Of a stretch of 64,000 nucleotides of DNA, positions 8,554 through 59,834 are shown piece by piece (the stretch's first letter is position 1; each line of letters starts with the position of its first letter). The notes beneath the pieces were generated by a model. The model saw only the letters and a program-made list of their open reading frames with translations, ran no database searches and had not been told where the DNA came from. The translations under genes were made by a program, and so were the position numbers. Source of the DNA: Arthrobacter sp. AZCC_0090 (lineage in GTDB: Bacteria; Actinomycetota; Actinomycetes; Actinomycetales; Micrococcaceae); the NCBI RefSeq assembly GCF_014207375.1, contig NZ_JACHEE010000001.1, positions 62,001-126,000 of the forward strand. The letters are read 5' to 3'.

Positions 8554-8970
8554 TCAGTCCTGCTCGTCGAATAGGCGAGTCAAGCAATCGGCATAGTTGG
8601 TCAGTATGGCCGCGAAAGTGAGCAGGTGGAGGCCGCCGTAGATGGCCGCCTCCGCCCTTTCCCTGTCTGCTTCGCCGGCGTGGCAGAGGAGTGGTTCGCA
8701 ACTGGTTCCGTTCGCGGTGAGCGTTGCGATTCCCCAAGGGTGACGGGGGTCGGTGACTGCGATGCCTGCTGCGTCGAGTGTGTCGCGGAGGACGTATCTT
8801 GTGACTGTCCTCCACGACTGGAGGAAAGATGGCCGCAGTTCTTCAACGAGTTCCTCGTCTTTGCTGTCGTAAGCGCGCCCCAGATTCGTGGAGAGCTCGT
8901 CCCACTCCTGGGCGTCGCGGACCATGAGATGTCCGGCGCGTAGGCGGGCAATTGTTTCGTTCAACGTCAT
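8554..8970 (-). CDS. Hypothetical protein, 138 residues
   Basis: A mostly helical, acidic protein that I cannot assign to a family. It has Cys at two close positions (TSCEPLLCH) in the middle and ends in a helical stretch (YADCLTRLFDEQD). There is no signal peptide or clear membrane segment. It has a modest GGGGA-type site upstream of the ATG at 8970. It stands alone between convergent and divergent neighbours. Codon use resembles that of the surrounding genes, so it is probably a real gene. Confidence 0.6.
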   Translation of the reverse strand: MTLNETIARLRAGHLMVRDAQEWDELSTNLGRAYDSKDEELVEELRPSFLQSWRTVTRYVLRDTLDAAGIAVTDPRHPWGIATLTANGTSCEPLLCHAGEADRERAEAAIYGGLHLLTFAAILTNYADCLTRLFDEQD

Positions 8971-9318
8971 GGTCAGTCCCCAAACTTCCTATTGTTTCTG
9001 GTCCCCGCCGATGAGGCAGGCCATCATGTGAGAGAACGGACAGAACCCCCGCATGATTCCCACGTGCAATTGGCTGCCCAGAGGCGTCCAGGCTTCACCT
9101 GGTTCGATCGAGGGCTGGACTTACAGTCCGTCTGGCTTCATCTGGGAACGGGTGTCTGACTGTCCTAGGACCAGGAGGGCCACGCGCCAGAGCCGGTCTC
9201 TGTCCTAAGGTCGAATCGACACCGCCGGCACGGATCGGGCTTGCCAAAAGAGGTTTGACCGAGGGGTGGGCTTGACCGAGGCGCCCGGTGGGAATCGCCG
9301 AGCTATTGAGGAGTACCG
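8971..9318. other. Intergenic region without a gene
   Basis: Separates two divergent genes and must hold both promoters. The only structure seen is a direct repeat TTGACCGAGG at 9255-9264 and 9272-9281 (17-base period), 40-60 bases upstream of the epimerase start, which could be an operator pair or overlapping -35 boxes. A GAGGAG site precedes the ATG at 9319. Confidence 0.4.
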
Positions 9319-10191
9319 ATGAGAATTGCAGTGACGGGTGGAAGCGGAAAGCTTGGCCGGCACGTGGTGCGCCGGCTCAGGGAGGACGGGCACCAGGTAT
9401 TGAACCTGGACCGTGCGGGGGAGAGGAACCCCGGCCTGGCGATCGTGGATTTGCGTGACTACGGTCAAGTGTTGGACGTGTTTTTGGGGCTGGATGACAG
9501 GCACAGCGGCTTCGATGCCGTGGTGCATCTGGGTGCCATTCCGGCACCCGGCATCGTCCCGGATTCCGCGACGTTTGAGAACAACATGCTCGCTACGTAC
9601 AACGTGTTTCAGGCGGCCCGCCGGGCCGGCGTCAAGAAGATTGTCTACGCCTCAAGTGAGACGGTGCTGGGCCTGCCGTTCGACGTCGACCCTCCCTATA
9701 TTCCGGTGGACGAGGAATACCCGGCCCGGCCGGAAAGCACGTATTCGCTGGTGAAGCATCTGGAGGAACAGATGGCCATCGAGTTGACGCGCTGGGACCC
9801 CGAGCTGAGCATTATCGGGCTGCGGTTCTCCAATGTCATGGATGTGGAAGATTATGAACGGTTTCCGTCCTTCGACGCGGACCCGATGCTGCGTAAATGG
9901 AACCTGTGGGGGTACATCGACGGCCGCGACGGTGCCCAGGCCGTGGCGCGGGCCCTTGAGAACGGCAAACCGGGATTCGAGGCGTTCATCATCGCCAACG
10001 CGGACACGGTCATGAGCCGGTCCAGCGCCAGCCTGGCCGCGGAGGTGTTCCCCGACGTGAAGGTGATCAAGGAACTGGGCGGGCACGAGACCATGCTCTC
10101 CATCGATAAGGCCACGCGGCTACTCGGGTTCGAGCCCGAACATACCTGGCGCGCCTACCATCCGAACCGCACTACCCCGATTGAGGATTGA
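9319..10191 (+). CDS. NAD-dependent epimerase/dehydratase family protein
   Basis: A 290-residue extended short-chain dehydrogenase. The Rossmann motif VTGGSGKLGRHVVRRL is at residues 4-19, the catalytic tyrosine lies in STYSLVKHLEE (YxxxK) at about residue 140, and VVHLGAIPAP marks the cofactor loop. It is typical of UDP-sugar epimerase or uronate-dehydrogenase-like enzymes; the exact substrate cannot be read from sequence. The next gene, an aldo/keto reductase, starts 8 bases after its stop, so they form an operon, probably for sugar or sugar-acid oxidation-reduction. Confidence 0.88.
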   Translation: MRIAVTGGSGKLGRHVVRRLREDGHQVLNLDRAGERNPGLAIVDLRDYGQVLDVFLGLDDRHSGFDAVVHLGAIPAPGIVPDSATFENNMLATYNVFQAARRAGVKKIVYASSETVLGLPFDVDPPYIPVDEEYPARPESTYSLVKHLEEQMAIELTRWDPELSIIGLRFSNVMDVEDYERFPSFDADPMLRKWNLWGYIDGRDGAQAVARALENGKPGFEAFIIANADTVMSRSSASLAAEVFPDVKVIKELGGHETMLSIDKATRLLGFEPEHTWRAYHPNRTTPIED

Positions 10192-10199
10192 GGATCATC

Positions 10200-11231
10200 A
10201 TGCAGTACCGTACTTTGGGCAACAGCGGCGCCGTGGTTTCGAACTACGCGCTGGGAACCATGACGTTCGGGGCTGAGGCCACCGAAGAAACGTCCCGCGC
10301 CATCTTGGACAGCTACGTTGCAGCCGGTGGCAACTTCATTGACACCGCCGATGTTTACAGCGCCGGTGTATCGGAGGAGATCATCGGTCGGTGGCTGGCC
10401 GAACGGCCCGATGCGCGGGACCGCGTGGTGCTGGCCACCAAGGGTCGCTTCCCCATGGGGACGGCGCCGAACGACGTCGGCACTTCCCGACGCCACCTCA
10501 CGCGGGCGTTGGACGATTCGCTGCGCCGTTTGGGCGTGGAGCAAATCGACCTGTACCAAATGCACGCGTGGGACCCCATTACGCCTTTGGAGGAGACGCT
10601 TCGTTTCCTGCACGAATCCGTCAGCAGCGGCAAGATCGCCTACTACGGTTTTTCCAACTTCCTGGGGTGGCAATTGACCAAGGCCGTCCACGTGGCTAAG
10701 GCCTTTGGCTGGAGCGCACCGGTGACCCTGCAGCCGCAATACAGCCTGTTGGTCCGTGAGATCGAATCGGAGATTGTTCCGGCTTCGCTGGATGCGGGCA
10801 TCGGGCTGCTGCCGTGGTCGCCGTTGGGTGGCGGATGGCTCTCCGGTAAGTACAAGCGCGACGAGCCGCCCGTCGGTTCCACCCGCCTGGGTGAAAACCC
10901 GAAGCGCGGCATGGAGGCATGGCAGGCCCGCAACGATGACCCCCGCACCTGGGAGGTCATCGGAACAGTGGAAAAGATCGCAGCGGATCATGGCGTCAGC
11001 GCCTCCCAGGTGGCGCTGGCATGGTTGGCGGACCGGCCTGCCGTGACGTCCGTGATCCTCGGTGCCCGCACCACCGAGCAACTGGCGGACAACCTTGCCG
11101 CGGCAGACCTGGAACTCAGCCCCGAGGAAACCCTGCGGCTCACCGAGGCCAGCCAACCGCGCGTGGGCGTCTATCCATACGGTCCAATGGCCCACGAACA
11201 GCGCAGCCGGAAGATCGAAGGCGGCCGGTAA
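10200..11231 (+). CDS. Aldo/keto reductase
   Basis: A 343-residue NADPH-dependent (beta/alpha)8 oxidoreductase, close to the YajO/voltage-gated-channel-beta type. The catalytic tetrad is visible: Asp and Tyr in FIDTADVYSAGVSEE, Lys in VVLATKGRF, and His in YQMHAWDP. The cofactor tail appears as SVILGARTTEQLADNL. I choose the ATG at 10200, with GAGGAT just upstream, rather than the in-frame TTG at 10188, which overlaps the previous stop. It is co-transcribed with the upstream epimerase and is followed by a terminator hairpin. Confidence 0.93.
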   Translation: MQYRTLGNSGAVVSNYALGTMTFGAEATEETSRAILDSYVAAGGNFIDTADVYSAGVSEEIIGRWLAERPDARDRVVLATKGRFPMGTAPNDVGTSRRHLTRALDDSLRRLGVEQIDLYQMHAWDPITPLEETLRFLHESVSSGKIAYYGFSNFLGWQLTKAVHVAKAFGWSAPVTLQPQYSLLVREIESEIVPASLDAGIGLLPWSPLGGGWLSGKYKRDEPPVGSTRLGENPKRGMEAWQARNDDPRTWEVIGTVEKIAADHGVSASQVALAWLADRPAVTSVILGARTTEQLADNLAAADLELSPEETLRLTEASQPRVGVYPYGPMAHEQRSRKIEGGR

Positions 11232-47544: not shown

Positions 47545-49059
47545 CTACAAGTCTTCTTCGTCACCGAGGTGGACGGCGGCTGGGCCTTCTTCGCCGTGCC
47601 CGATCCGCCGATAGACGGCCGGCCGGCTACGGCGGAGGCGGAACGCCCAGGCGATCCCCACCAATCCGGGCACGATGATGGTGGCCGGCAGGATGAACGT
47701 CAAAGCATTGGTGTCGTTCTGGCCTAGCAATACGTTGAAGTTGACCACGATCAGAACGAAGATCACGGCGAGGAGCACGAACCCCAGGGCAGGTGCGATC
47801 ACACGGGTCCAGATTCCAGCGTCATGCCTGTTTTTGCGGAAGAATCCAATGACTGCCAGCGAAACAACGGTCATCAGGAGGACAAGTCCCATGGCGCCGT
47901 CATTGGTCAGCCACGTGAACATGGTCAGGACTGGGTAGAGATCGCCGAGCGTCGATCCGGTTCCCGCGATGGCGAAGGCTACCGTGACTACGACGGCGAT
48001 GACCGTCTGGGCGATCGACCCGGCGTACGGGGCGCCGCTGTGCCGACGCACGGCCCCAAGCTTTCGGGGAAGGACCTGTTCGCGGCCAAGGGAGAAGAAG
48101 TAGCGGGCGGCCGCGTTGTGGAAGCTGACGAGGGCTGCGAAGAGGCTGGTGACGAAGAGCAGTCGGGCCAGGTCTGCGAGAAGGACGCCCGTGTGGTCGC
48201 CCAGGAAGCCGAACATCAGGTCCGGTCCTTGTTTTGCGGACGCATCGACCACCGCGGACGGTCCTGTTCCGATCGCCATGGCCCAGGAAGAAACAGCGTA
48301 GAACAGGGCGATGATGGCTACCGCGGTGTACGTTGCCCGGGCGACCGTGTGCTTGGGGTCCTTGCTTTCCTCGCCGTAGATCGCAGCCGACTCAAATCCC
48401 ATGAACGCGGCGATGCCGAAGGAGAGGACCGCTCCGACGCCTGGCACGAAGAGGCTTTCCGGGCTAAGGGGCGCTCCGCTGACGCCTTCCGGTGCCACAG
48501 CAAAGGAGACGACGTCGTAAACGATCACCACAAGGAACTCCAGGCCGACGAGCACCCCAAGGACTTTCGCCGACAGATCCACCCGGTTCACACCAAGAAA
48601 CGCGACGACGGCGATGCAGACCAGCACCGGGATCCACCAGGGGACTGTGGCGCCGAAGCGTTCGTTGATCAGGCTTGAAACGGTGAATCCGAAGAGGCCG
48701 TAGATGCCGACTTGCATCAGGTTGTAGGCCATCAGCGCCACCATGGAAACCCCGACGCCAACGGGCCGGGAGATGCCCTGCGCGACGTAGGAATAGAAGG
48801 CGCCGGCGTTGACGACGTACCTGCTCATCGCCGCGTAACCGACCGCGAAAACAGCGAGAGTTCCGCCAAGCAGCAAGAAGGACAGCGGTACGCCGGTGAC
48901 CCCGGTGACGGCGAACGTCGTCGTCACGCCGCCGGCGAGGACGGTAAGCGGTGCCGAGGCTGCGATGATCATGAAGGTCACCGCAGGGACGCCAAGGCGG
49001 CGTCGTTGATGATGCGGGTGGGCCACTTCGGTGGGCTCTTTTCCTGTTGTCACGCTCAT
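47545..49059 (-). CDS. APC-family amino acid/amine permease
   Basis: A 504-residue transporter with about 12 helices. The APC start is [28 protein letters not shown], with the conserved [15 protein letters not shown] block in the middle (helix 6) and [17 protein letters not shown]. Such proteins import amino acids, polyamines or aromatic amines. Its ATG overlaps the amine oxidase stop by 4 bases (ATGA), so they are translated together; the substrate is probably the amine that the oxidase consumes. Confidence 0.93.
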
Positions 49060-50999
49060 TTTTGTGCCTCCATATGGCAGTGGCCGCCTTCAGCGGGCTT
49101 CGACGCCGGGACATCGAGCACGGGGCTTCGGTCGAAGAAGCCTTCGGGGCGGAGTTTGAAGCCCACCGTGTCTACCGGCATGATGGGCCAGTCCTCCGGT
49201 CGGGGGAAATGGGTCAGTCCGAAGGTGTGCCACACCACGATGTCCTGTCCGTCGATGTCCCTGTCACGGGCAACGTAGGCCGGCAGCCCGGCTCCTCCGG
49301 AGTGTTGGTTGACGAAATCGCCGCTGGGGTAGTGCTCGGCCTCGTCGTGGCGGGTCACCCACAGGTCCTTGGTGGCGAATGCGGCACGCTGGGCGATTGA
49401 TGATTGGGGGTCGGCCAGGAGCATGGGATGCCCTTGGCCATGGAGTTTGTACGCCACGGGTTCGCCGAGGCGGTTGAGGGATTCGGGATTCGAGATCACC
49501 CAGGCCCGTCCCGCCGCCATGTCGGACTCCCGCACACCTTCCGATTCGCGCTTAAGGACAGTACGACGGCGGGTGAAGGCGTTGCCGCGTTCGTTGCCTG
49601 CGCCCATTGGCACCCGGACAGCGTCCTCTTCCTCGACGCGGTTGGTGAGTCCGTCGACGGCAAAGTCCAGGCGGGCGCTGAAGAGGTGCTGGTGGAAGGG
49701 GGCGCCGAGACCGGGGGCGAGTTCGGAGGCATAGGGGTAGCCTTTCCCGGGGTGGGCGCTGGTGAAGACGACGCCGGTGGCCTTGGCCTCGAACTCGATG
49801 GTGCCGTCGAGGTAGAGGTACCAGTAGAAGCCGTAGTCGTAGTTGCCAATGGTGGTAAAGAAGCTGATGACCAGCCGTCGGTTCCGACGCGTGTAGTTCA
49901 CTCCGCTCCACAGATCACTGTGCTTGGCGAGGATGCTCCAGTCCTCTTCGTGCATGCAGATGCCGTTGCGGATTTCGCGCGGCTGGCCGAACGCATCGCT
50001 GACTACCGGGCTGAGGTAGGTGATTTCGCCGAGGCAGTCACAGCCAAGTTCCAGGGAGTTTGCGTACTGGCCCACCAGGTATTCACCGGTGTCGAAGTAG
50101 TTCTGCCAGGAGCGCACGGGGGAGGGGTCGCCGTAAGGCACTACCATTTCGGCGATCGAAGCCCGCTTGAGGATACTGCGGCGGCGATCGCCGTCGTCGA
50201 ACGCGACATTGTGCAGGACCACGCCTTCGCGGACATCGAAACCGATGTCGAGGCTCCACTTTTCCCACTCGACGTGGTTTCCGCCCTGAACCGTGAAGCT
50301 CGGGCCTTCCGGCTGGGTGATGTGGATCGGCTTTTGAGTAGTGCGCATCGGGCCGGTCAGCTCCGGGTCCGTGAAGTTGCCGCGCTCCTCCGGGACCGGG
50401 ACCGCTCCGAAATCCAGAACCTTGTCCACGGTCTTGCTGACGACGTCGACGTAGGCAACCAGTCCGTCCACAGGGTGGGCCCAAGCGCTGTCTTCCGGAA
50501 ATTCCTGAACGAAAGCCAAGCCACGCAGGATCCGGCGGCCCTTCTCTTCCGGGTATTCGAAAACGCCGGCCGACAGGGGAGCGACCCTCACTTTGCTGAC
50601 GTCGAGATTCCGGTCAGCCAAGGCCTTCAGCCAGCGTTCGTCCTGGGAGAGGACCTCCTCCACTACCTCGAATTCTTCTTCGATGACCGGAAGCTCGCCC
50701 GCCACCGAGGTGTCGAGTGCCACCTTCGAGACGACTTCCTGCTGCGTCACAGAGACAACGACGTCCTGTGCCGCTCCGGATGAAACGTCATGCAAGAACG
50801 CCCTGAACCTGCGGTCCACGATTCCCGAATTGCGCCCCGAGTCGCGCGGGGGATCGAGCAGTCCAAGGTAGGCCACCCGGGTGGTTTCGTCGAAGAGTCC
50901 GGCGGCGGCGAGAATGCCCTTGACTGCCGTGATGTCATCGGCGGTAGTCAACGCGTACGCAGCCATTTCGGCGATTTCTGGAGAGGAAGTTGTGCTCAT
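49056..50999 (-). CDS. Copper-containing primary-amine oxidase
   Basis: A 647-residue copper amine oxidase, close in style to the Arthrobacter globiformis phenylethylamine oxidase. The tyrosine turned into topaquinone is Tyr 387 in TTIGNYDYG; the catalytic base is Asp 303 in [10 protein letters not shown]; copper ligands are [11 protein letters not shown] and, near the C-terminus, [12 protein letters not shown]. No signal peptide is seen, so it is cytoplasmic like its relatives. It turns a primary amine, water and oxygen into aldehyde, ammonia and hydrogen peroxide. First gene of the operon; ends in a His/Met-rich tail ([10 protein letters not shown]). Confidence 0.96.
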
Positions 51000-51025
51000 G
51001 GAAGGCCTTCGGGGTCGTCGGATTT

Positions 51026-51047
51026 ATTTTCTATGTGTGTAGAGAAT
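51026..51047. promoter_or_regulatory. Operator-like dyad in the amine oxidase/TetR intergenic region
   Basis: ATTTTCTA (51026-51033) and TAGAGAAT (51040-51047) are inverted copies with one mismatch and a 6-base spacer. It covers the -10 of the amine oxidase promoter, the expected place for TetR repression. Confidence 0.5.
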
Positions 51048-51071
51048 AGCATCGTGTAATCTGAGTCACAA
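51043..51071 (-). promoter_or_regulatory. Amine oxidase operon promoter
   Basis: On the minus strand TTGTGA (complement of 51066-51071) and TATTCT (complement of 51043-51048) are 17 bases apart, a good sigma-70-type promoter. A small dyad ACAAC-G-GTTGT (51068-51078) overlaps the -35 box. Confidence 0.6.
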
Positions 51072-51100
51072 CGGTTGTAGAAAAAAGATTTGGGGAACGC

Positions 51101-51763
51101 GTGCCGAAGATCGTAGACCACGACAAGCGCCGGGTGGAGCTCGTCGAAGCCACCTGGCGGATCATCGCGAAGAGGGGGATCGAGGGTGCAACCATGCGTG
51201 AAATTGCGATGGAAGCGGGCTTTGCCAATGGTGCACTCAAGCCTTATTTTCCGACGAAAGATGACCTGCTGACTTTTGCCTTCGCGCACGTTTTCAACCA
51301 GACGAACGCCCGCATGGGCAACTCAACTGCGCACCAGCACGGACTGTCGGCGCTGCGCAGCTACTGCCACGAAATCCTGCCGCTCGATGCCGAGAGGCTC
51401 AACGAGGCGCGAATAGCCATCGCGTTCTGGCAGCGCGCACTCACGGACCCCGCGAAGGCGGCGTTGCATGATTCCTCGATGGAGCAATGGCGTGAGTCGC
51501 TCTTCGCCAGGCTCCGTGAAGCCAGGGACCTGGGCGAGCTGAAGGAGGGGCTGAACGACGACGACATCGTCGGCGGGATCATGACGTTCGCGCTCGGTGC
51601 GCAGATCACAGCAACCCTCACCCCCGAGCACCACTCGCCGGATCAGTTGCGGTCCCAACTGGAGGCCTATCTTTCGCTCATTTCAGCCGAAAGGAGCGCA
51701 CTCGTCCCGACTGCCGGATCGGCGAGCTCCCATGAGGGCGGACGGTTCCTCAGCGGCTGTTAA
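51101..51763 (+). CDS. TetR/AcrR-family regulator
   Basis: A 220-residue TetR-family protein. The N-terminal helix-turn-helix is RRVELVEATWRIIAKRGIEGATMREIAMEAGFANGALKPYFPTKDDLLTFAF (residues ~10-60) and the helical C-terminal half is the ligand/dimer domain. GTG start at 51101 directly before MPKIVDHDKRR. It is divergent from the amine oxidase operon with about 100 bases between, so it is the likely regulator of that operon, with the amine or aldehyde as effector. It converges on the FGE gene. Confidence 0.92.
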   Translation: MPKIVDHDKRRVELVEATWRIIAKRGIEGATMREIAMEAGFANGALKPYFPTKDDLLTFAFAHVFNQTNARMGNSTAHQHGLSALRSYCHEILPLDAERLNEARIAIAFWQRALTDPAKAALHDSSMEQWRESLFARLREARDLGELKEGLNDDDIVGGIMTFALGAQITATLTPEHHSPDQLRSQLEAYLSLISAERSALVPTAGSASSHEGGRFLSGC

Positions 51764-51781: not shown

Positions 51782-52741
51782 TTACGCGGACGCCACCGTG
51801 CGGAACCCGCAGTTACCGCTTGAGGAATCGGGGGTATTGGAAGTCCTGGCGGCGACGCGATAGCGGTTGCAGTAGGAATCGTGGCAGAGGTAGGACCCGC
51901 CGCGCATGACCCGGCCAGCGCCGATCGTGGGGCCTTGGGGGTTGTGGGCGCGGGAGTTGCGGTAGTACTTGGGCAGGAACCAGTCCGCGCACCATTCCCA
52001 CACGTTCCCGGCCACTTCGTAGAGTCCGTAGCCGTTGGGCGGGAATGATTTCACGGCGGCGGCGCCCAAATGGCCGTCCTCTTCCGTGTTCAGGGTGGGG
52101 AAGGTGCCTTGCCAGATGTTGCAGCGGTGTTCGCCCTCCGGCGTGAGGTCATCGCCCCAGGCGTAGCGTTTTCCGGCGAGCCCGCCCCGGGCGGAGTACT
52201 CCCATTCGGCTTCAGTGGGCAGGCGGCGCCCGGCCCAAGCGCAGTAGGCCAAAGCGTCGTGGTGGGAGACATGCACTACCGGGTGCTCCGGCGTCGTGCT
52301 CCAGTGCGAATCGGGTCCTGCGGGGTGTGCCCAATCGGCGCCTCGGACGTTCAACCACCACGGCGCCCCGGCAGCGGCGCCGAGGATCTCGCTCTCGGGT
52401 GCCTTGACGAGCAGATGGAACACCGCCGAGGTCCCGTACTCCTCCGCTTCTGTCCGGTAGCCGGTGTCCTGGGCGAAGGTGGCGAACATCCGGTTGGTGA
52501 CCGCGGTCGCATCAATACGGAAGGCGTCGAGGTGCACGTCGTGCACTGGGCCCTCGCCGTCGGCGGGGTATCCCTCGCCAAAGGCGTCTCCCATGGCAAA
52601 CGCACCGCCCGGAATCAGCACGTCCGCGTGTTGGGCGGGCGAGGCTTCCTGGGGAGTGCCGCGGTTGACGGCGGCTAGCGGAGCCGAGGCCCGCGACGGG
52701 GAGCAGCAGCCCGCACCAAGGGGTGAATCCGTTGATTCCAT
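51782..52741 (-). CDS. Formylglycine-generating enzyme (sulfatase maturase)
   Basis: A 319-residue FGE/SUMF1-type enzyme. VLIPGGAFAMGDAFGEGYPADGEGPVHDV opens the fold; ATAVTNRMFATFAQDTGY, RLPTEAEWEYSARGGLAGKRYAWGD and VAGNVWEWCADWF follow. The copper-binding, catalytic Cys pair is Cys 286 and Cys 291 in SYLCHDSYCNRYR, and the C-terminal NCGFR is intact. It converts the Cys of CxPxR in sulfatases to formylglycine using oxygen. Its target is almost surely the sulfatase encoded about 0.9 kb away on the other strand. The ATG at 52741 has AAAGGAAA upstream. Confidence 0.95.
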   Translation of the reverse strand: MESTDSPLGAGCCSPSRASAPLAAVNRGTPQEASPAQHADVLIPGGAFAMGDAFGEGYPADGEGPVHDVHLDAFRIDATAVTNRMFATFAQDTGYRTEAEEYGTSAVFHLLVKAPESEILGAAAGAPWWLNVRGADWAHPAGPDSHWSTTPEHPVVHVSHHDALAYCAWAGRRLPTEAEWEYSARGGLAGKRYAWGDDLTPEGEHRCNIWQGTFPTLNTEEDGHLGAAAVKSFPPNGYGLYEVAGNVWEWCADWFLPKYYRNSRAHNPQGPTIGAGRVMRGGSYLCHDSYCNRYRVAARTSNTPDSSSGNCGFRTVASA

Positions 52742-52841
52742 GCGTTTCCTTTACGAGGAACTACGGCTGATCGCCTGAGGGATGGGCCCGGAGGCCGGGC
52801 CGGCCGAAGCCCGCCGCGCGCGTGTATTTAGCCTAGCAAAA

Positions 52842-52913
52842 GCACTCCACTTGTTCCATTGACCACGCATTCCACTTGTGTCATTGACGAAGCATTCCAC
52901 TTGTGTCATTCTT
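52842..52913. repeat. Three tandem direct repeats, 25-bp period
   Basis: GCACTCCACTTGTTCCATTGAC (52842-52863), GCATTCCACTTGTGTCATTGAC (52867-52888) and GCATTCCACTTGTGTCATT (52892-52910) start exactly 25 bases apart. They lie in the divergent promoter region of FGE and the PadR-sulfatase operon. A tandem operator for the adjacent PadR protein is the simplest reading. Confidence 0.75.
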
Positions 52914-52966
52914 CTTTTAGGACGTGAGCCACGTCACGATAGTTGGATCGTCATCGGAGAGAACCA

Positions 52967-53584
52967 ATGAAGCTTGAAAACATCCTTTTAGGGGTGCTGC
53001 TGGAACACCCTGGCACGGGTTATGACCTGAAAAAATACCTCGACGTGCACGGCCGGTTTCTCCGCTCGAACACGCAGATGAGCCAGGTCTACCGATCGCT
53101 CGCCGGGATGGAGAAGCAGGGCTGGGTGACGCACACGGTGGAGCCCCGTCCCGGGGCCCAGGATGCCAAGACCTACCGCGTGACCGGGGAGGGGGCCACC
53201 GTCTTCCTCGACTGGCTGACCGGCCCCTACCAGCCGCCATCTCGATTCCAAGACCCAGAGTTCGGCGCGCGCCTGAGCTTTGCCGGGTTCATGAGCGCAG
53301 AACAGTTGTTGCGCCTCCTGGATATTGAGATCCATACCCGGCAGGAGGAAATCGCCAGGTACCGCTACCGGGACCGCCGTGAGGACTGGGCGCCGACCAT
53401 CCCGTTCGATTCCGAATTCGCCGATTCGCTCGGCGAGAGGCTCCACCGCCTCGGCGCCGCGGCGATCGACGCGCACGTCGCTGCCATGATCGAGCTCCGC
53501 AAAGACCTCCTCGATGGGAAATTATCGTCGCGTTCCCTCACCGCACTTCCCGGCGATGCCACCCCCGCCGACGTCGCCCGCTGA
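52967..53584 (+). CDS. PadR-family regulator of the sulfatase locus
   Basis: A 205-residue PadR protein of the long (PadR/Vir-like) class: the winged helix reads LENILLGVLLEHPGTGYDLKKYLDV, TQMSQVYRSLAGMEKQGWVTH and a wing, AKTYRVTGEGA; the C-terminal half is the helical dimerisation domain. The ATG at 52967 has GGAGAG upstream. It is the first gene of the operon with sulfatase, MFS and GH3, and stands beside triple repeats in its promoter region, so it probably regulates both the operon and the divergent FGE gene. Confidence 0.92.
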   Translation: MKLENILLGVLLEHPGTGYDLKKYLDVHGRFLRSNTQMSQVYRSLAGMEKQGWVTHTVEPRPGAQDAKTYRVTGEGATVFLDWLTGPYQPPSRFQDPEFGARLSFAGFMSAEQLLRLLDIEIHTRQEEIARYRYRDRREDWAPTIPFDSEFADSLGERLHRLGAAAIDAHVAAMIELRKDLLDGKLSSRSLTALPGDATPADVAR

Positions 53585-53590
53585 CCGAGC

Positions 53591-53606
53591 GGGACGACGT
53601 CGTCCC
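53591..53606. promoter_or_regulatory. 16-bp perfect palindrome before the sulfatase gene
   Basis: GGGACGACGTCGTCCC, self-complementary, lies in the 38-base gap between the padR stop and the sulfatase start, with extra GAGC/GCTC flanks. It may be an operator half-site pair or a hairpin near the sulfatase ribosome-binding site. Confidence 0.6.
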
Positions 53607-53622
53607 AGCTCCTGAAAGGACC

Positions 53623-55398
53623 ATGATGAGGGCCATCATCCTCATGTTCGACAGCCTGAACAGGCACATGCTTTCCCCGTATGCCGACACCATCGTCGAA
53701 GCGCCGAACTTCGTCCGTCTCGCCGCGAAGTCGGTCACCTTCGAGAATTTCTACGCCGGATCGATGCCGTGCATGCCCGCGCGCCGCGAGATGCACACTG
53801 GCCGCTACAACTTCCTGCACCGTAGCTGGGGCCCGTTGGAGCCGTTCGACGACTCCATGCCCGAGATGCTCGGCAAAGCCGGTGTGCACACACACCTAGC
53901 ATCCGATCACCCCCACTACTGGGAGGACGGCGGTGCCACGTACCACCCCCGTTACACGACGTGGGAGTTCTTCCGCGGCCAGGAGGGTGACCCCTGGAAG
54001 GGCGTTGTCGCCCAGTCAGCGGACGACGGCGGTGCCAGCGACTGGCGCTCGGGCATGAAGCGCCAGGACGTCATCAACCGCAGCTACATGCCCACCGAGG
54101 CGGAGCACTCCCAGACCCGCACGGTCGACGCCGGTCTGCACTTCATCGACACCAACCAGGCCGCCGACCAGTGGATGCTCCAGATCGAGCTCTTCGACCC
54201 GCACGAGCCCTTCTTCACCCACCCGGCGTTCAAAGCAATGTATCCGCACAACTACGACGGCCCAGGGTTCGACTGGCCCGGCTACCAGAAAGTCACCGAA
54301 CCTCAGTCCCAAGTGGACCACGCCCGCTACGAATACGCAGCCCTCGTCTCCATGTGCGACAAATCCCTGGGCAGGGTCCTGGATGCGATGGACCAGTACG
54401 ACATGTGGAAGGACACCCTGCTGCTGGTCAACACCGACCACGGCTTCCTGCTCGGTGAGCACGGATGGTGGGCGAAATCGGTCCAACCGTGGTTCAACGA
54501 GCTGGTTCACCTGCCGATGTTCCTGTGGGACCCGCGAACCGCTGGTCGCGACACCCGCCGCGGCGCCCTCGCCCAGACGATCGACATCGCCCCCACGATG
54601 CTCCGCTACTTCGGGCTCGAGCCGACGGCGGACATGCAGGGCCGGGATCTCGCCGTCGTCCTCGAAGACGACACCCAAGTGCGTGAAGCCGCGCTCTTCG
54701 GAATCCACGGCGGTCACGTCAATGCCACCGATGGCCGCTACGTCTACATGAGAGCGGCAGCTGACGCTTCGAACGCTCCGCTCGAGGACTACACCCTCAT
54801 GCCTACCCACATGCGCTCCCGGTTTGCTGTCCCGGATCTCTCCGATTGGCAGCCCGCGGACCCTTTCTCTTTCACGAAGGGCCTGCGCACCATGAAAATG
54901 CCGGCCACCTCGTTCATGAACTCTTGGGCGCACGGAACCTTGCTGTTCGATCTCAAGACCGATCCGGAACAGAACACCCCCCTCACCGACGACGACACCG
55001 AACTGCGAATGTTGCAGCTGCTCGCCGAACTCATGCACGCAAGCGACGCCCCCCGCAGCCAATTCGAACGGCTCGGCATTCCGTTCCACAGCGTCCCCGG
55101 GAAGGAACATCTTCAAGTCCGTCGGCAAGCGGCGCGTTCCACGGCCGCCCTGGAGCCCCTCCCGCCGCTAGGGGAGTTCCCCGACGACGGTGCAGCCTTG
55201 AATACCCCGATCCTTGAGCTCATGCAGGATCCGCGCTATCGAGACAGCCTTGAACGGCACCTCCCGCAGCTTGTTTCCACCGAACTGATCAACATCCCCG
55301 CTCAGCTCACGCTCCACCAACTGGCAAAGGTCAGCCCTATCCCGGTCACCCTGCTGGTCCAACTGGCCGAGGAACTCGCCACAGTCCCCACAGCATGA
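53623..55398 (+). CDS. Type I sulfatase
   Basis: A 591-residue formylglycine-dependent sulfatase. The CxPxR motif is Cys 50 in SMPCMPARREMHTG, so it needs the FGE encoded across the divergent promoter. The metal site uses Asp 10 (LMFDSLNRH), and the C-terminal NTDHGFLLGEHGWWAK supplies the second Asp/His pair. Only one Asp is at the N-terminal site (usually two), a trait of S1 subclasses such as phosphonate-monoester-hydrolase-like members; the substrate is unclear. No signal peptide, so cytoplasmic. Two adjacent ATGs (53623, 53626) are possible; AAAGGA suits the second. Followed by MFS and GH3 genes in the same direction. Confidence 0.93.
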   Translation: MMRAIILMFDSLNRHMLSPYADTIVEAPNFVRLAAKSVTFENFYAGSMPCMPARREMHTGRYNFLHRSWGPLEPFDDSMPEMLGKAGVHTHLASDHPHYWEDGGATYHPRYTTWEFFRGQEGDPWKGVVAQSADDGGASDWRSGMKRQDVINRSYMPTEAEHSQTRTVDAGLHFIDTNQAADQWMLQIELFDPHEPFFTHPAFKAMYPHNYDGPGFDWPGYQKVTEPQSQVDHARYEYAALVSMCDKSLGRVLDAMDQYDMWKDTLLLVNTDHGFLLGEHGWWAKSVQPWFNELVHLPMFLWDPRTAGRDTRRGALAQTIDIAPTMLRYFGLEPTADMQGRDLAVVLEDDTQVREAALFGIHGGHVNATDGRYVYMRAAADASNAPLEDYTLMPTHMRSRFAVPDLSDWQPADPFSFTKGLRTMKMPATSFMNSWAHGTLLFDLKTDPEQNTPLTDDDTELRMLQLLAELMHASDAPRSQFERLGIPFHSVPGKEHLQVRRQAARSTAALEPLPPLGEFPDDGAALNTPILELMQDPRYRDSLERHLPQLVSTELINIPAQLTLHQLAKVSPIPVTLLVQLAEELATVPTA

Positions 55399-55434
55399 CC
55401 CCCCTTCCGCCTGCCAATGTAGACAGGACACCTC

Positions 55435-56781
55435 ATGGCAACCCAAACCGCTAAATCAACTGCATCCGAAGGCTCGACTCAGGCCCATCACGTTCCGCAC
55501 CGCTGGCGGAACCTGGCCACCCTCACGGGCGTCACCGTCGTCGACAACACCGAAGCAGGACTCAGCGCCACCCTGTTCCCCACGATCGCCGCGGCAATGA
55601 AGCTGCAAAGCAGCCACCTCGGCCTTCTCGCTGCCCTTGGAAAGCTCATCGCCGTCCCGGCCGGGCCGGCCTGGGCATGGCTCGCTGGCCGGATCGGCCG
55701 TCGCAATGCGCTCATTGCGACAACCCTGACCGGGGGAGGGTTCGGCATCGCTGCCGGTTTCTCCCATGACTTCGCCCAGCTGCTGATCTTCAATACCCTG
55801 ATGTCGGCGTCCATTATCGGAGGCAGCCCCATCGCCAATGCCATCATCGCCGACTCATTCGACGACTCCCAACGGGGGAAAGCGGCCGGCTACTTCTACG
55901 GCTTCATGAGCCTGATCAGCTCTTTCATCGCCCCGGTTATCGCCCTGTTCACGGGCCTGTCGGACGGCTGGCGTTACGGCATGTGGACCATCGGCGGCAT
56001 CTGCGTTGTCGCTGGCCTCGCCGTCGCCGTACTGCTCCGCGACCCCGGTGTGGGAGCGTCCGAAAAGCAGCTAGCGGACCTCTCCAGCCGCGACCGCGTG
56101 ATTCCCAAGGTCACCGTGCGGTCAGTGATTTCACTCTTCAAGATCCCCTCTTTCTCCCTGATGATGCTCTCGCGGCTGTTGTCCGGGCACCTGCTGATCG
56201 CCATCTTCGGTATCCAATTCCTGGTTGCCGAACGCGGGTTCACGAATGCCGTCGCCGCAGTCGTCCTTGTCCCGTTCGGCATCGGGTACTTTGCCGGCAC
56301 CGCGGGCGGCGGCTGGTTCGTGGCACTCTTGGACCGTCTCCTGCCTGACAAAGGCCGGATCGCCTACCTCCAGGGCGCGCAGGTGCTCTTCGCTGTGGTT
56401 GCCTTCTTCGCTACCCAGTTCCACTATGAGGGCATCTTCATCTACGGCATCTTCTGGGCCATCCTGGGCTTCGCCCAAGGCGCGAACCCGCCCGCAAACC
56501 GGCCCATCGTCGCCGCCGTCATTTTGCCCGAACTACGTAACCAAGCCTTCGCGATCTTCCTCACCGTGTTCGAGACCATGGGCTGGGCCGTCTTCTCCCT
56601 CGGTGCCGGGGCCCTGGCCTCGACCCTCGGGATCCAGGCGGTGTTCCTCTGGACCCTGGTCATCCTCATGCTCGTCAACGCCGCTGTCCTGACCGGCCTT
56701 TACTTTTGCTATCCGCAGGATGTCGCCCGGGTCCGGGACACCCTCGAGAAACGGCGCCAGGAAGCCCTGCGCGAAGGCTGA
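55435..56781 (+). CDS. MFS transporter of the sulfatase locus
   Basis: A 448-residue major facilitator with 12 helices: NTEAGLSATLFPTIAAAMKL, then AGRIGRRNALIATTLTGGGFG (the MFS loop between helices 2 and 3) and ANAIIADSFDDSQRGKAAGYFYG. It resembles carbohydrate- or organic-anion-type importers rather than drug exporters. It starts 36 bases after the sulfatase gene, so it is the best candidate for uptake of the sulfated substrate. No other transporter is in the locus. Confidence 0.9.
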   Translation: MATQTAKSTASEGSTQAHHVPHRWRNLATLTGVTVVDNTEAGLSATLFPTIAAAMKLQSSHLGLLAALGKLIAVPAGPAWAWLAGRIGRRNALIATTLTGGGFGIAAGFSHDFAQLLIFNTLMSASIIGGSPIANAIIADSFDDSQRGKAAGYFYGFMSLISSFIAPVIALFTGLSDGWRYGMWTIGGICVVAGLAVAVLLRDPGVGASEKQLADLSSRDRVIPKVTVRSVISLFKIPSFSLMMLSRLLSGHLLIAIFGIQFLVAERGFTNAVAAVVLVPFGIGYFAGTAGGGWFVALLDRLLPDKGRIAYLQGAQVLFAVVAFFATQFHYEGIFIYGIFWAILGFAQGANPPANRPIVAAVILPELRNQAFAIFLTVFETMGWAVFSLGAGALASTLGIQAVFLWTLVILMLVNAAVLTGLYFCYPQDVARVRDTLEKRRQEALREG

Positions 56782-56825
56782 CGCGCCGCCGGCCAACAGC
56801 AAAATTACCTTCTAGATAGGAACCC

Positions 56826-59312
56826 ATGATGGAAATGCTCTCCCCGGAACGCCGTTCAGTAGATCAGATTGCCGACCAGCGCCTCGAATCACTCCTGGAC
56901 CAGTTGAGCCTTGAGGAGAAGGTCAGGTTGCTGACGGGCCGGGATTTTTGGACGACGTGGCCGGTAGAGAAGATCGGGCTGCGGCGGATGCTGTTCTCGG
57001 ACGGGCCGTCGGGGGTGCGTGGCGAGGTGTGGGATGAGCGGCGGCCCTCCATGAACTTCCCGTCAGCGACCGCCATCAGTTCGTCCTGGGATCCGGCGAT
57101 CGCGGACCGTCTGGGGGCGGCGTCGGCGGTGGAAGCGCGCCGCAAGGGCGTCGACGTCGTGCTCGGCCCGACCATCAACCTGCACCGTTCCCCGTTGGGC
57201 GGCCGGCATTTCGAGTCGTTCAGCGAGGATCCGGTCCTGACCGCGGAACTCGCGGCGGCGTATGTGGCCGGCGTGCAGCGCAACGGGGTGGGTGCCACCC
57301 CCAAGCATTATGTTGCCAATGATTCGGAGACGGACCGGTTCACCGTGGATGTCAGGGTGGGGGACCGCGCCCTGCGTGAGCTGTATTTGCTGGCGTTTGA
57401 GAAGGCCATTGTCGAATCGAAGGCGTGGCTGGTGATGAGCGCCTATAACTCGATCAACGGCGCCACGGCCACGGAGAACGAGTTGCTGGAGTCCCCGCTG
57501 AACAGCGAATGGGACTTCGACGGCGTGGTGATCAGCGACTGGACCGCCGTGCGCAGCGTGGAAAGCGCCAAGCACTCCCAAGATCTGGCCATGCCCGGCC
57601 CGGAGGGGCCGTGGGGTTCGGAGCTCGTGCTGGCGGTGAAATGCGGGACGGTTCCCGAGGCCGCGATCGACCGGAAGGTGCTGCGGATCCTGCAGCTCGC
57701 CGGACGGGTGGGTGCCTTGGAAGGTTTTGAGCCCGTGGCCGCTGAACCGGTGGACCAGGAGGACCCGGTCGTGTTCGCCCGGGAGGCGTCCGTGGCCGGG
57801 ACAGTGATGGTGAAGAACGACGGCGTGCTGCCGCTGGCTCCGGCGTCGGTTGCCAGGGTTGCGGTGATCGGACACAATGCCCGCCATGCCCGGACTCAGG
57901 GTGGCGGTTCCGCGACCGTGGTTCCGGAGAAGATCGTCACGCCGTTGAACGGGGTCCGTGCTGCGTTCGGCCCGGATAAGGTCAGCTACAGCGTGGGTGC
58001 GGTAGTCCAGGAAGGCATTGCCGAACTACCCCTGGAGCAATTGAGGAATCCGGTGACTGGCGGGCCGGGGCTGCGGGTGCGCTTCTTTGCATCCACCGGA
58101 ACCGAACTCCTCGCCGAGGACCGCCGCTCTACCGCGTTGGTCTGGTTCGGCGGGGACGCTCCGATCGCGGAGTCCTCCATGGTCCAGTTCCACACCCTGT
58201 ACACCCCCGAGGAGACCGGCATGATCCACCTGGGGTTCTCCACGGTGGGGCATGGCCGGATTTTCGTGGACGGGGTCCTGGCCCGCGAGGCAACCATCGA
58301 GGCCACGGGCACGGACCTGGGCGCGGCGTTCCTCGCCCCGCCCTCGGCCTCCGTCCCGATCCGTGCTTCTGCTGGTGTGCCTTTGGAAGTGACGGTGGAA
58401 CTGGACCTCGCCGGCCGCACCGGGTCCCTGTCCAACGCCCTGGCCGTGACCATCGGGCTCGAAGCGGACGATACAGACCCCGAGGCCCTGATCAAGGACG
58501 CCGTTGCGGCGGCCCGGGCGGCCGAGGTCGCCGTCGTCGTGGTCGGCACGAACTCGAGGGTGGAATCCGAAGGCTACGACCGAACCACCCTGGGGCTTCC
58601 GGGCCTCCAGGACCGGCTGGTCCGTGCCGTCGCCGCGGCCAACCCGCGCACCGTGGTGGTGGTGAACTCCGGGGCCCCGGTGCTGCTGCCTTGGCGGGAC
58701 GAAGTGGGCGCGATCCTCATCGGGTACTTCGGTGGCCAGGAATTCGGCACTGCCCTCGCCGACATCCTCACCGGCGCCGCCGAACCCGGCGGGCGGCTCC
58801 CCACCACCTGGCCCGCCACGCAGGAAGACGTGCCTGTCCTCAACACCACACCCGACGTCGAGGGAAAGTTGGTGTACGAGGAAGGTGTCCACATCGGCTA
58901 CCGGGCTTGGCTGAAGGCAGGAGTGAAGCCGGCCTACGAGTTCGGGCACGGACTCGGTTACACCAACTGGACCCTTGACTCCGTTGGCGCTCCCGTTACT
59001 GCGGCGCCCGGTGCCGTCGTAGCCCTCCACATGACCCTGTCCAACACCGGCACCCGGCCCGGCAAGCAAGTTGTCCAGGTCTACGCCGAACGGCCCGGCT
59101 CTGCTGTCGATCGTCCCGTTCGCTGGCTCGTCGCCTCCGCACCAGTGTGGGCCGAATCCGGCGAAACCGTCACCGCCACCCTGAACGTGCCCACCCGGAT
59201 GCTCGCCTACTGGGACAACGGCTGGCAATACGAACCCGGGGACTACCGCCTCCACATCGGCACCTCAGTCAGCGAGCTTCCGCTTGCCGTGGACTTGAGG
59301 CTCAACGCCTAG
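56826..59312 (+). CDS. Family 3 glycoside hydrolase with PA14 domain
   Basis: An 828-residue GH3 beta-glycosidase. The nucleophile Asp is residue 238 in DFDGVVISDWTAVRS; the KHYVAND substrate-binding block (160-166) and SDGPSGVRGE are intact. Between the two main GH3 domains is a PA14 insert (RFFASTGTELLAEDRR, YTPEETGMIHLGFSTVGHGRIFVDGV) that shapes substrate choice, and the C-terminal FnIII-like domain ends the chain. No signal peptide, so it works inside the cell. Last gene of the sulfatase operon; it probably cleaves the desulfated glycoside. Confidence 0.95.
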   Translation: MMEMLSPERRSVDQIADQRLESLLDQLSLEEKVRLLTGRDFWTTWPVEKIGLRRMLFSDGPSGVRGEVWDERRPSMNFPSATAISSSWDPAIADRLGAASAVEARRKGVDVVLGPTINLHRSPLGGRHFESFSEDPVLTAELAAAYVAGVQRNGVGATPKHYVANDSETDRFTVDVRVGDRALRELYLLAFEKAIVESKAWLVMSAYNSINGATATENELLESPLNSEWDFDGVVISDWTAVRSVESAKHSQDLAMPGPEGPWGSELVLAVKCGTVPEAAIDRKVLRILQLAGRVGALEGFEPVAAEPVDQEDPVVFAREASVAGTVMVKNDGVLPLAPASVARVAVIGHNARHARTQGGGSATVVPEKIVTPLNGVRAAFGPDKVSYSVGAVVQEGIAELPLEQLRNPVTGGPGLRVRFFASTGTELLAEDRRSTALVWFGGDAPIAESSMVQFHTLYTPEETGMIHLGFSTVGHGRIFVDGVLAREATIEATGTDLGAAFLAPPSASVPIRASAGVPLEVTVELDLAGRTGSLSNALAVTIGLEADDTDPEALIKDAVAAARAAEVAVVVVGTNSRVESEGYDRTTLGLPGLQDRLVRAVAAANPRTVVVVNSGAPVLLPWRDEVGAILIGYFGGQEFGTALADILTGAAEPGGRLPTTWPATQEDVPVLNTTPDVEGKLVYEEGVHIGYRAWLKAGVKPAYEFGHGLGYTNWTLDSVGAPVTAAPGAVVALHMTLSNTGTRPGKQVVQVYAERPGSAVDRPVRWLVASAPVWAESGETVTATLNVPTRMLAYWDNGWQYEPGDYRLHIGTSVSELPLAVDLRLNA

Positions 59313-59420
59313 CAACCGTTCTTGCCGCCCCACCCTGTCCGCCCTGTTCTGCCGCAAACGCCGTCGATAGACTTAAGAGGCGCCAAGGGACGCAAAGTTG
59401 GTTGCGGGAAAGGCAAGATC

Positions 59421-59834
59421 ATGACCGACAGCAGCGGCGTCGAAGACCCCACTGAAGACGAGGAACGCGGAGTTTCCGAGGAGTCGGAGCTCCGGGGCCG
59501 GTACGTCGAGGGCAACTACGGGAAGACGGGAACGCAGCCCGGGCGGCACTCGGAAGACGAAGAAGGCCAATATAGCGAAGGCGACTACGGCACCGCCGGA
59601 AGCCAAGGGGGTCTGCCCGAGCCTCTCGGTAGGAAAGCCAGAGAGTCTGGGCGCTATGCAAAGGCAGACCTTGGCGACGCGGGAACCGTTCCGGGGCGCA
59701 CTGCGGCGTCGGAAATCGGCCAGTACGCCGAGGGGGATTACGGCGCGGACGGAACGGTGGGTCCAGTACGCAAATCAGCCGATCGACCAGCGCCACCCGA
59801 TGAACCAGCGCCACCCGAAGAAGGCGACGCCTGA
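59421..59834 (+). CDS. Acidic protein with four GxYxExxYG-type repeats
   Basis: A 137-residue, low-complexity, acidic protein. Four repeats of about 23-30 residues are seen: GRYVEGNYGKTGTQPGRH, GQYSEGDYGTAGSQGG, GRYAKADLGDAGTVPGRT and GQYAEGDYGADGTVG, ending in a Pro-rich PAPPDEPAPPEE tail. No signal peptide or membrane helix. I do not recognise a family, but such repeat proteins occur in Micrococcaceae; it may be a stress or envelope-associated disordered protein. GGAAAGG lies upstream of the ATG at 59421. Confidence 0.75.
   Translation: MTDSSGVEDPTEDEERGVSEESELRGRYVEGNYGKTGTQPGRHSEDEEGQYSEGDYGTAGSQGGLPEPLGRKARESGRYAKADLGDAGTVPGRTAASEIGQYAEGDYGADGTVGPVRKSADRPAPPDEPAPPEEGDA

Follow-up and report, generated by a model that had tools for sequence, protein, structure and literature searches.

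In the sulfatase loci of marine and gut Bacteroidota, sulfatases are joined with glycoside hydrolases and a transporter, and the sulfatases are secreted or periplasmic. The cassette described here, in contrast, appears to put import of the whole substrate first. It is located in a 64,000-nucleotide stretch of DNA (the window), which is part of contig C1 of the 4.92-Mb genome of Arthrobacter sp. AZCC_0090, and it comprises five genes that had been noted together in an earlier reading made from the letters alone (the sequence-only reading); all five were found at the expected places and assigned to the expected families by Pfam and NCBIfam matches. These are an aerobic formylglycine-generating enzyme (FGE; 319 aa, 51782–52741, minus strand) and, on the plus strand, a PadR-family regulator (205 aa, 52967–53584), a formylglycine (FGly)-type sulfatase (591 aa, 53623–55398), a major facilitator superfamily (MFS) transporter presumed to import the sulfated substrate (448 aa, 55435–56781) and a glycoside hydrolase family 3 (GH3) enzyme resembling beta-glucosidases (828 aa, 56826–59312). 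The gaps following PadR, the sulfatase and the MFS gene measure 38, 36 and 44 bp, respectively, while FGE and PadR diverge from a common control region of 225 bp (52742–52966), confirming the arrangement given in the sequence-only reading. Maturase, client, importer, glycosidase, regulator and operator would thus form a compact, testable system of 7.5 kb.

None of the enzymes carries a signal peptide, as had been claimed earlier. The open reading frames (ORFs) of FGE, PadR, MFS and GH3 have an in-frame stop 0–4 codons upstream; the sulfatase frame remains open for 80 codons upstream, yet its ATG is the first ATG, GTG or TTG past the stop. As the earliest such codon is used for each enzyme, a signal peptide hidden by another start was ruled out, and the annotated starts in five public relatives match the window start to approximately one residue. 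The enzymes, as judged from their sequences, look cytoplasmic, in which case the substrate must enter the cell first; this part of the sequence-only reading is also in agreement with the frequent association of an importer and a glycosidase with the sulfatase in other genomes.

We consider it probable that the locus is a PadR-controlled cassette for the intracellular use of a sulfated glycoside by import, desulfation and deglycosylation. The MFS protein would take up the intact sulfated glycoside, FGE, expressed divergently from the common control region, would oxidise Cys50 of the sulfatase to FGly, and the sulfatase would take off the sulfate, after which a GH3 enzyme similar to BcpE2 of Streptomyces scabiei would split the aglycone from the sugar, most likely beta-glucose. 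PadR would repress via three tandem 25-bp repeats and be released by substrate or product. If the sulfate is placed on the terminal glucose, desulfation would have to precede cleavage, since BcpE2 is said to accommodate all five glucose hydroxyls in its active site (an excerpt of PMC9426481); if it is placed on the aglycone, the order may be either.

The sequence-only reading would have been refuted by a lack of homologous gene order in other genomes; such an order was looked for and found. Divergent FGE and PadR-sulfatase-MFS-GH3 occur in the same order and on the same strands in genome G054 (72–82% identity), Streptomyces bluensis (57–71%) and S. himastatinicus, where the GH3 match is in two pieces; the distance between FGE and PadR is about 0.8–1 kb in both Streptomyces. 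On a plasmid of S. anulatus the order is GH3, MFS, TetR, FGE, PadR, MFS, GH1 and sulfatase. Of the 199 genomes searched, six more, all congeneric, had copies of at least 77% identity, and the cassette is therefore accessory.

To describe the neighbourhood more widely, 103 loci were mapped (the window, 17 genome stretches, five chosen among the 20 plasmid regions listed and the best 80 of at least 564 confirmed relatives of the sulfatase), from which three duplicates were dropped to leave 100, 83 of these having flanks of at least 7.5 kb. PadR, sulfatase and MFS genes separated by gaps of less than 400 bp were present in 12 of the 100 dereplicated loci, four of which also had GH3 within 2 kb. 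Neighbours of the 83 loci were tallied within 7.5 kb by tblastn (E 1e-10), as the ORF caller errs in GC-rich DNA by proposing spurious antisense ORFs; the counts are confined to families for which there was a query and miss GH3s of other types (genome G016 has one by Pfam and none by tblastn). FGE was present in 43 loci, PadR in 35, other sulfatases in 38, GH3 in 28 and GH1 in eight, while among importers an oligopeptide-type ATP-binding cassette (ABC) system was present in 28, an MFS protein of the window type or a second type in 26 and a third MFS type in six. Any counted importer was thus found in 56 loci, GH3 or GH1 in 32 and an importer together with a glycosidase in 29; GH2, sugar ABC and phosphotransferase system (PTS) genes are present in some loci, outside these tallies.

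The genome background was compared for 15 genomes with 18 loci of near-full-length sulfatases; G062, truncated at a contig end, was omitted. FGE lay no more than 7.5 kb from the sulfatase in 11 of the 18 (one of them a broken copy on contig C6) against 0.12 expected, and GH3 in five against 0.42 expected, with a Poisson P of 7.5e-5 that is indicative only, the genomes being related. It could be argued that these genes are loosely associated neighbours, with GH3 and MFS acting on unsulfated glucosides and the sulfatase acting elsewhere, and G022 and G066, whose sulfatases are the two nearest in the tree, indeed lack a GH3 gene within 10 kb of theirs. We regard such an arrangement as highly improbable in view of the enrichment above background, the single strand with gaps of 36–44 bp, and the Streptomyces loci, which share the gene order with plus-strand genes that are 61–71% identical.

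The importer beside the sulfatase alternates between MFS and an oligopeptide-type ABC system. The MFS protein of the window (PF07690, 106 bits) weakly resembles the symporter MhpT (E 5e-13; 49 bits, cut-off 410). In G022, the nearest relative (PadR 82% and sulfatase 88% identical), the sulfatase is followed on the same strand by genes for a binding protein of the SBP_bac_5 type, a permease and a permease/ATPase fusion, which occupy the position of MFS-GH3. Furthermore, the E. coli homologue (53% identity) is preceded by PTS EIIC-GAT and IIB genes, and this stretch was found in 552 of 5426 complete E. coli genomes; in CP088669.1 (L047, 7303–10482) rlmC and artJ flank it, and no glycosidase is annotated alongside. 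Binding-protein ABC systems of the SBP_bac_5 kind and PTS are uptake systems, and because they stand beside relatives of the sulfatase, the MFS protein at the same place is, by analogy, most simply an importer. This alternation is the best support for whole-substrate import, and the importer function proposed in the sequence-only reading is strengthened by it. In a sulfatase tree that covers 60 of the 100 loci, including 28 that belong to neither importer group, the MFS and ABC labels need eight changes each, at least five of which are forced by well-supported branches; shuffled labels were as clustered in 69 and 63 of 500 trials. Importer type therefore barely follows the sulfatase tree, as would be expected from swapping but also from noise.

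The MFS protein could conversely be an exporter, with the enzymes modifying a plant or microbial toxin rather than serving nutrition. Many MFS proteins are exporters, PadR regulators often respond to phenolics, and a drug-exporter-like MFS gene (scoring below family cut-offs) lies next but one downstream of the cassette. Detoxification nevertheless appears very unlikely, given that uptake systems are present beside relatives of the sulfatase, namely the binding-protein ABC system after the sulfatase of the nearest relative and the PTS genes preceding the E. coli homologue.

The sulfatase (PF00884, 104 bits) contains the C-x-P-x-R maturation motif as CMPAR at residues 50–54, and its presumed active-site residues are D10, C50, R54, H194, D272/H273 and K285. 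DHPHY is present at residues 95–99, where GK...H is usual. Across 48 aligned members of the family, C-x-P-A-R, DPHEP, D10, D272, H273 and K285 are invariant, and the cysteine motif is retained in 96 of 98 ORFs. DHxHY is present in all 48 and K[WM]H in none, such that the second S1 signature (PS00149) is absent. Among the 98 sulfatase ORFs of at least 48% identity, 95 carry DHxHY, two carry Asp-Asn-x-His-Tyr and one is a fragment. The two exceptions, in L104 (10001–11782) and L041, are natural variants of the unusual motif; in L041 (genome G096) the family sulfatase at 8957–10764 is split in two overlapping frames and is perhaps decayed or misassembled.

In AtsA, Lys113 and His115 belong to the second signature Gly-Lys...His, with His115 as the proposed base for sulfate elimination, and in a set of 4058 FGly-sulfatases Lys113 is found in 94%, Asp at position 113 in 87 sequences and Ser in place of Gly112 in 87 (both from an excerpt of PMC5066984). 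With minority residues at positions 112 and 113 in that set, the missing signature does not exclude S1 membership, and the 87 Asp113 sequences of that excerpt may represent this very sulfatase family. The structural model (pLDDT 86.6) has the S1 alpha/beta fold: it aligned best to the S1_7 ulvan sulfatase 6hhm (VIA Z 35.4, rmsd 3.1 over 395 residues), followed by the S1_0 phosphonate monoester hydrolase 2w8s (Z 33.9, rmsd 3.0 over 383) and iduronate-2-sulfatase (Z 33.5), at 20–21% identity in each of the three comparisons, while Foldseek gave the dimeric sulfatases SpAS2 and SpAS1 (4upl, 4upi; 16–17% identity) as top matches. Over residues 1–480 the fold aligns with S1 FGly sulfatases and, at a slightly lower score, with phosphonate monoester hydrolases, and CxPxR, the first metal Asp, the Asp-His pair, His194 and Lys285 are common to them; in contrast to both classes, the window enzyme has DHxHY for GK...H, lacks a signal peptide and is only approximately 21% identical. 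Its C-terminal stretch (residues 487–591, approximately) is missing from the aligned Paenibacillus and E. coli members. A profile of the 48 members matched sulfatases and phosphonate hydrolases of solved structure at E 9e-31 or weaker, and the family is without a close solved structure. It is widespread, with the best 80 of the relatives distributed over Actinomycetota, Chloroflexota, Bacillota, Pseudomonadota, Armatimonadota and Asgard archaea. Based on sequence and model, the enzyme was provisionally filed among the S1 FGly-dependent sulfatases, without a subfamily.

The same comparisons raise the question of whether the enzyme is instead a phosphonate monoester or phosphodiester hydrolase that handles a phosphorylated or phosphonylated glycoside. 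FGly serves both kinds of enzyme (according to an excerpt of PMC5066984), the Lys of the S1 signature is absent, the VIA score for the phosphonate monoester hydrolase is close to that of the S1_7 sulfatase, and the best NCBIfam match is PehA, a phosphoric/sulfuric ester hydrolase (109 bits, cut-off 900). We judge this distinctly unlikely, as Foldseek placed the dimeric sulfatases first, other sulfatase-family genes are present within 7.5 kb in 38 of the 83 loci, and six of 17 such neighbouring sequences, included in the same alignment run, keep GKWH.

The window FGE (PF03781, 267 bits, cut-off 23.3) has the aerobic SUMF1-type domain, matches the S. coelicolor FGE structures 2q17 (448 bits) and 6muj (447 bits) over residues 18–316 and shares with them the active-site cysteine pair C-x4-C as CHDSYC (residues 286–291; C286/C291), and by these features it is an orthodox aerobic FGE. 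It differs from the S. coelicolor enzyme in that its gene diverges from a sulfatase operon, with an operator-like region in between, and in having an N-terminal CCSP (residues 12–15, 52697–52708, minus strand), which is possibly a copper-loading site, by its sequence; of the 35 FGE ORFs in the mapped loci (that of the window among them), 19 have CC.P ahead of the core. Four PF03781 matches were found in the genome: that of the window, two on contig C6 that are pieces of one gene interrupted by a TGA and a change of frame, and one on contig C16 (106 bits). A radical-SAM (oxygen-independent) sulfatase maturase was not found in the genome, the best TIGR03942 match scoring 21 bits against a cut-off of 349. 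Since no other intact full-scoring maturase was found, the window FGE is probably shared; its description in the sequence-only reading as the locus' own overstated the exclusivity. A second module in the same genome (C6:262000–281900, L027) includes a sulfatase with an open frame, 68–70% identical to that of the window, an SBP_bac_5 ABC system, a GH1 homologue, a mandelate-racemase-type enzyme and the broken FGE gene. In five other loci (L078, L086, L110, L114 and L118; Chloroflexota, Bacillota and an Asgard archaeon), proteins of cluster c26 are located near the sulfatase. The representative that was scanned, from L086, is a radical-SAM/SPASM protein, and the cluster presumably constitutes, by sequence type, an oxygen-independent maturase in place of FGE.

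The N- and C-domains, Fn3 and PA14 are all in place in the GH3 enzyme (PF01915/PF00933/PF14310). By sequence its nearest solved relative is BcpE2 (7pjj; 647 bits, Foldseek E 6.5e-91), with which its model (pLDDT 82.3) aligned at VIA Z 46.8, rmsd 3.2 and 45% identity over 782 residues, and a higher score (Z 52.3) was obtained for a PA14-bearing K. marxianus enzyme (KmBglI type). Pfam gave no PA14 line for the window GH3 at an E-value limit of 10; the presence of PA14 (residues 400–546, approximately), which the sequence-only reading had claimed, was upheld by the 782-residue alignment with PA14-bearing GH3s, by residues 416–546, approximately, which form strands and one helix as expected for PA14, and by the Pfam signal in the syntenic GH3s of S. 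bluensis (4.9e-5; 23.6 bits, cut-off 24) and G054 (0.022). The catalytic residues are D238 and a Glu of E580-S-E582, both Glu occurring in the 7pjj alignment. The key BcpE2 residues D59, R127, Y207, D239, W240 and E582 (PMC9426481, in part) correspond to D59, R127, Y207, D238, W239 and one Glu of the ESE at 580–582. BcpE2 shares the multi-domain GH3 fold with PA14 and, in the excerpt of PMC9426481, was tested on unsulfated plant heterosides with no sulfatase link. As BcpE2 frees glucose from many plant heterosides (same excerpt), an aglycone-bearing glucoside is by analogy at most a reasonable guess for the substrate of the window enzyme. The plant or algal origin suggested in the sequence-only reading was itself a guess. 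A glucosinolate (a thioglucoside with an O-sulfate) was considered and set aside: attractive as it is, no supporting evidence emerged, and a literature search showed no such bacterial locus.

The PadR protein (PF03551, 39.2 bits, cut-off 27) is better started at ATG 52967 (MKLENILLG, after GGAGAG) than at the TTG 52943 of the listed ORF. Three head-to-tail copies of a 25-bp repeat lie upstream at 52842–52916, with the core TCCACTTGTGTCATTGAC; three matches were reached in none of 100 window shuffles, with a pattern derived from this very site. When up to two mismatches were allowed, the 16-bp core TTCCACTTGTGTCATT was present in the whole genome only at two of the repeats. Related sites (at most five mismatches in 18, either strand, within 250 bp upstream) precede 18 of the 20 PadR relatives that are at least 57% identical (the window's included) and 11 of 13 such relatives outside the genus, as compared to none of 24 below 57%. 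Shuffled motifs gave a mean of 0.24 and a maximum of four of the 20. This test was shaped post hoc, as the motif derives from the window and the 57% threshold was set once the data had been inspected. Other upstream regions of the same loci gave 11 matches in 231, some perhaps at spurious ORFs beside the same control region. The consensus is TCCACTTGTGTCATKGWC, and copies are spaced at 25–26 bp in the genus and 34 bp in three Streptomyces. Because motif and regulator type travel together, the repeats are most likely a PadR operator, as predicted from sequence, and would provide a handle on the inducer and hence on the substrate. FGE is divergent from PadR, with sites between them, in the window, G054, G004, G016, S. 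bluensis and S. himastatinicus; the operator-like motif between the two genes makes joint control of FGE and the PadR operon plausible, and to that extent the earlier suggestion of maturase and client being co-induced is sustained.

A wider PadR regulon that might reveal an aglycone pathway was sought by a motif search of nine genomes and abandoned: clusters were found only at the cassette (eight of nine), and single matches elsewhere were about as many as a reversed control pattern gives. The PadR sites of G022 were too diverged for this search pattern, though they were detected in the separate comparison. Local control by PadR bears on a sulfur-scavenging role, whereby the compound would be imported for its sulfate under sulfur limitation with the sugar as a by-product. 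Pseudomonads desulfate imported sulfate esters in the cytoplasm for sulfur, and some of the family's loci contain an importer but none of the glycosidases that were counted. We consider scavenging unlikely, since the regulator is a local PadR with motif clusters confined to the cassette, a GH3 or GH1 gene is present in 32 of the 83 loci, and no sulfate-assimilation protein was recognised among ten window proteins scanned.

Several observations weigh against intracellular use of a sulfated glycoside as set out above. By the queries used, 27 of the 83 loci lack an MFS or oligopeptide-type importer within 7.5 kb and 51 lack GH3 or GH1; on account of the latter, our confidence in the intracellular desulfation of an imported substrate is higher than in the exact role of GH3, which is also absent near the sulfatases of G022 and G066. 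FGE is absent within 10 kb in five of the 18 background loci, the direction of MFS transport is unreadable from sequence, and the scan of ten window proteins revealed no clear aglycone-degrading or sulfate-assimilating enzyme, unless the adjoining amine oxidase is counted. Finally, characterised S1 enzymes have a Lys/His pair that is missing from this sulfatase, which resembles phosphonate monoester hydrolases almost as closely as it does sulfatases; sulfate as the substrate group is therefore not proven.

No description of this cassette was found in the open-access literature searched. Each part is of a known kind; what had no counterpart in that literature is a cytoplasmic, maturase-linked, importer-alternating and PadR-linked assembly around a sulfatase family with a changed signature, and the 'new pathway' of the sequence-only reading is better described as an uncharacterised representative of a kind of locus that is widespread. 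More tentatively, and with some doubt on our part, the family may represent a large FGly branch with an Asp-His-x-His-Tyr centre that is specialised for substrates imported intact, with exchangeable importers (MFS, oligopeptide-type ABC, sugar ABC and PTS) and maturases (FGE or radical-SAM), extending from actinobacteria to Chloroflexota, Bacillota, Pseudomonadota and Asgard archaea. If this is true, a general import-then-desulfate route for sulfated glycosides would run parallel to the known export-then-desulfate loci. The cassette itself suggests whole uptake of sulfated glycosides by soil bacteria, and the changed active site would probe which parts of the accepted FGly-sulfatase mechanism are obligatory.

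A scan for promoters and terminators was uninformative, with one promoter-like site (0.9 in shuffles) and one terminator-like site (5.0 in shuffles). Downstream of the cassette, 59322–59834 encodes a 170-aa ORF in which EGxYG-like stretches recur and for which neither Pfam nor NCBIfam gave a match at E 0.001. Upstream, 47545–51763 holds genes for an amino-acid permease, an AGAO-like copper amine oxidase and a TetR regulator, which probably constitute a separate amine-utilisation unit.

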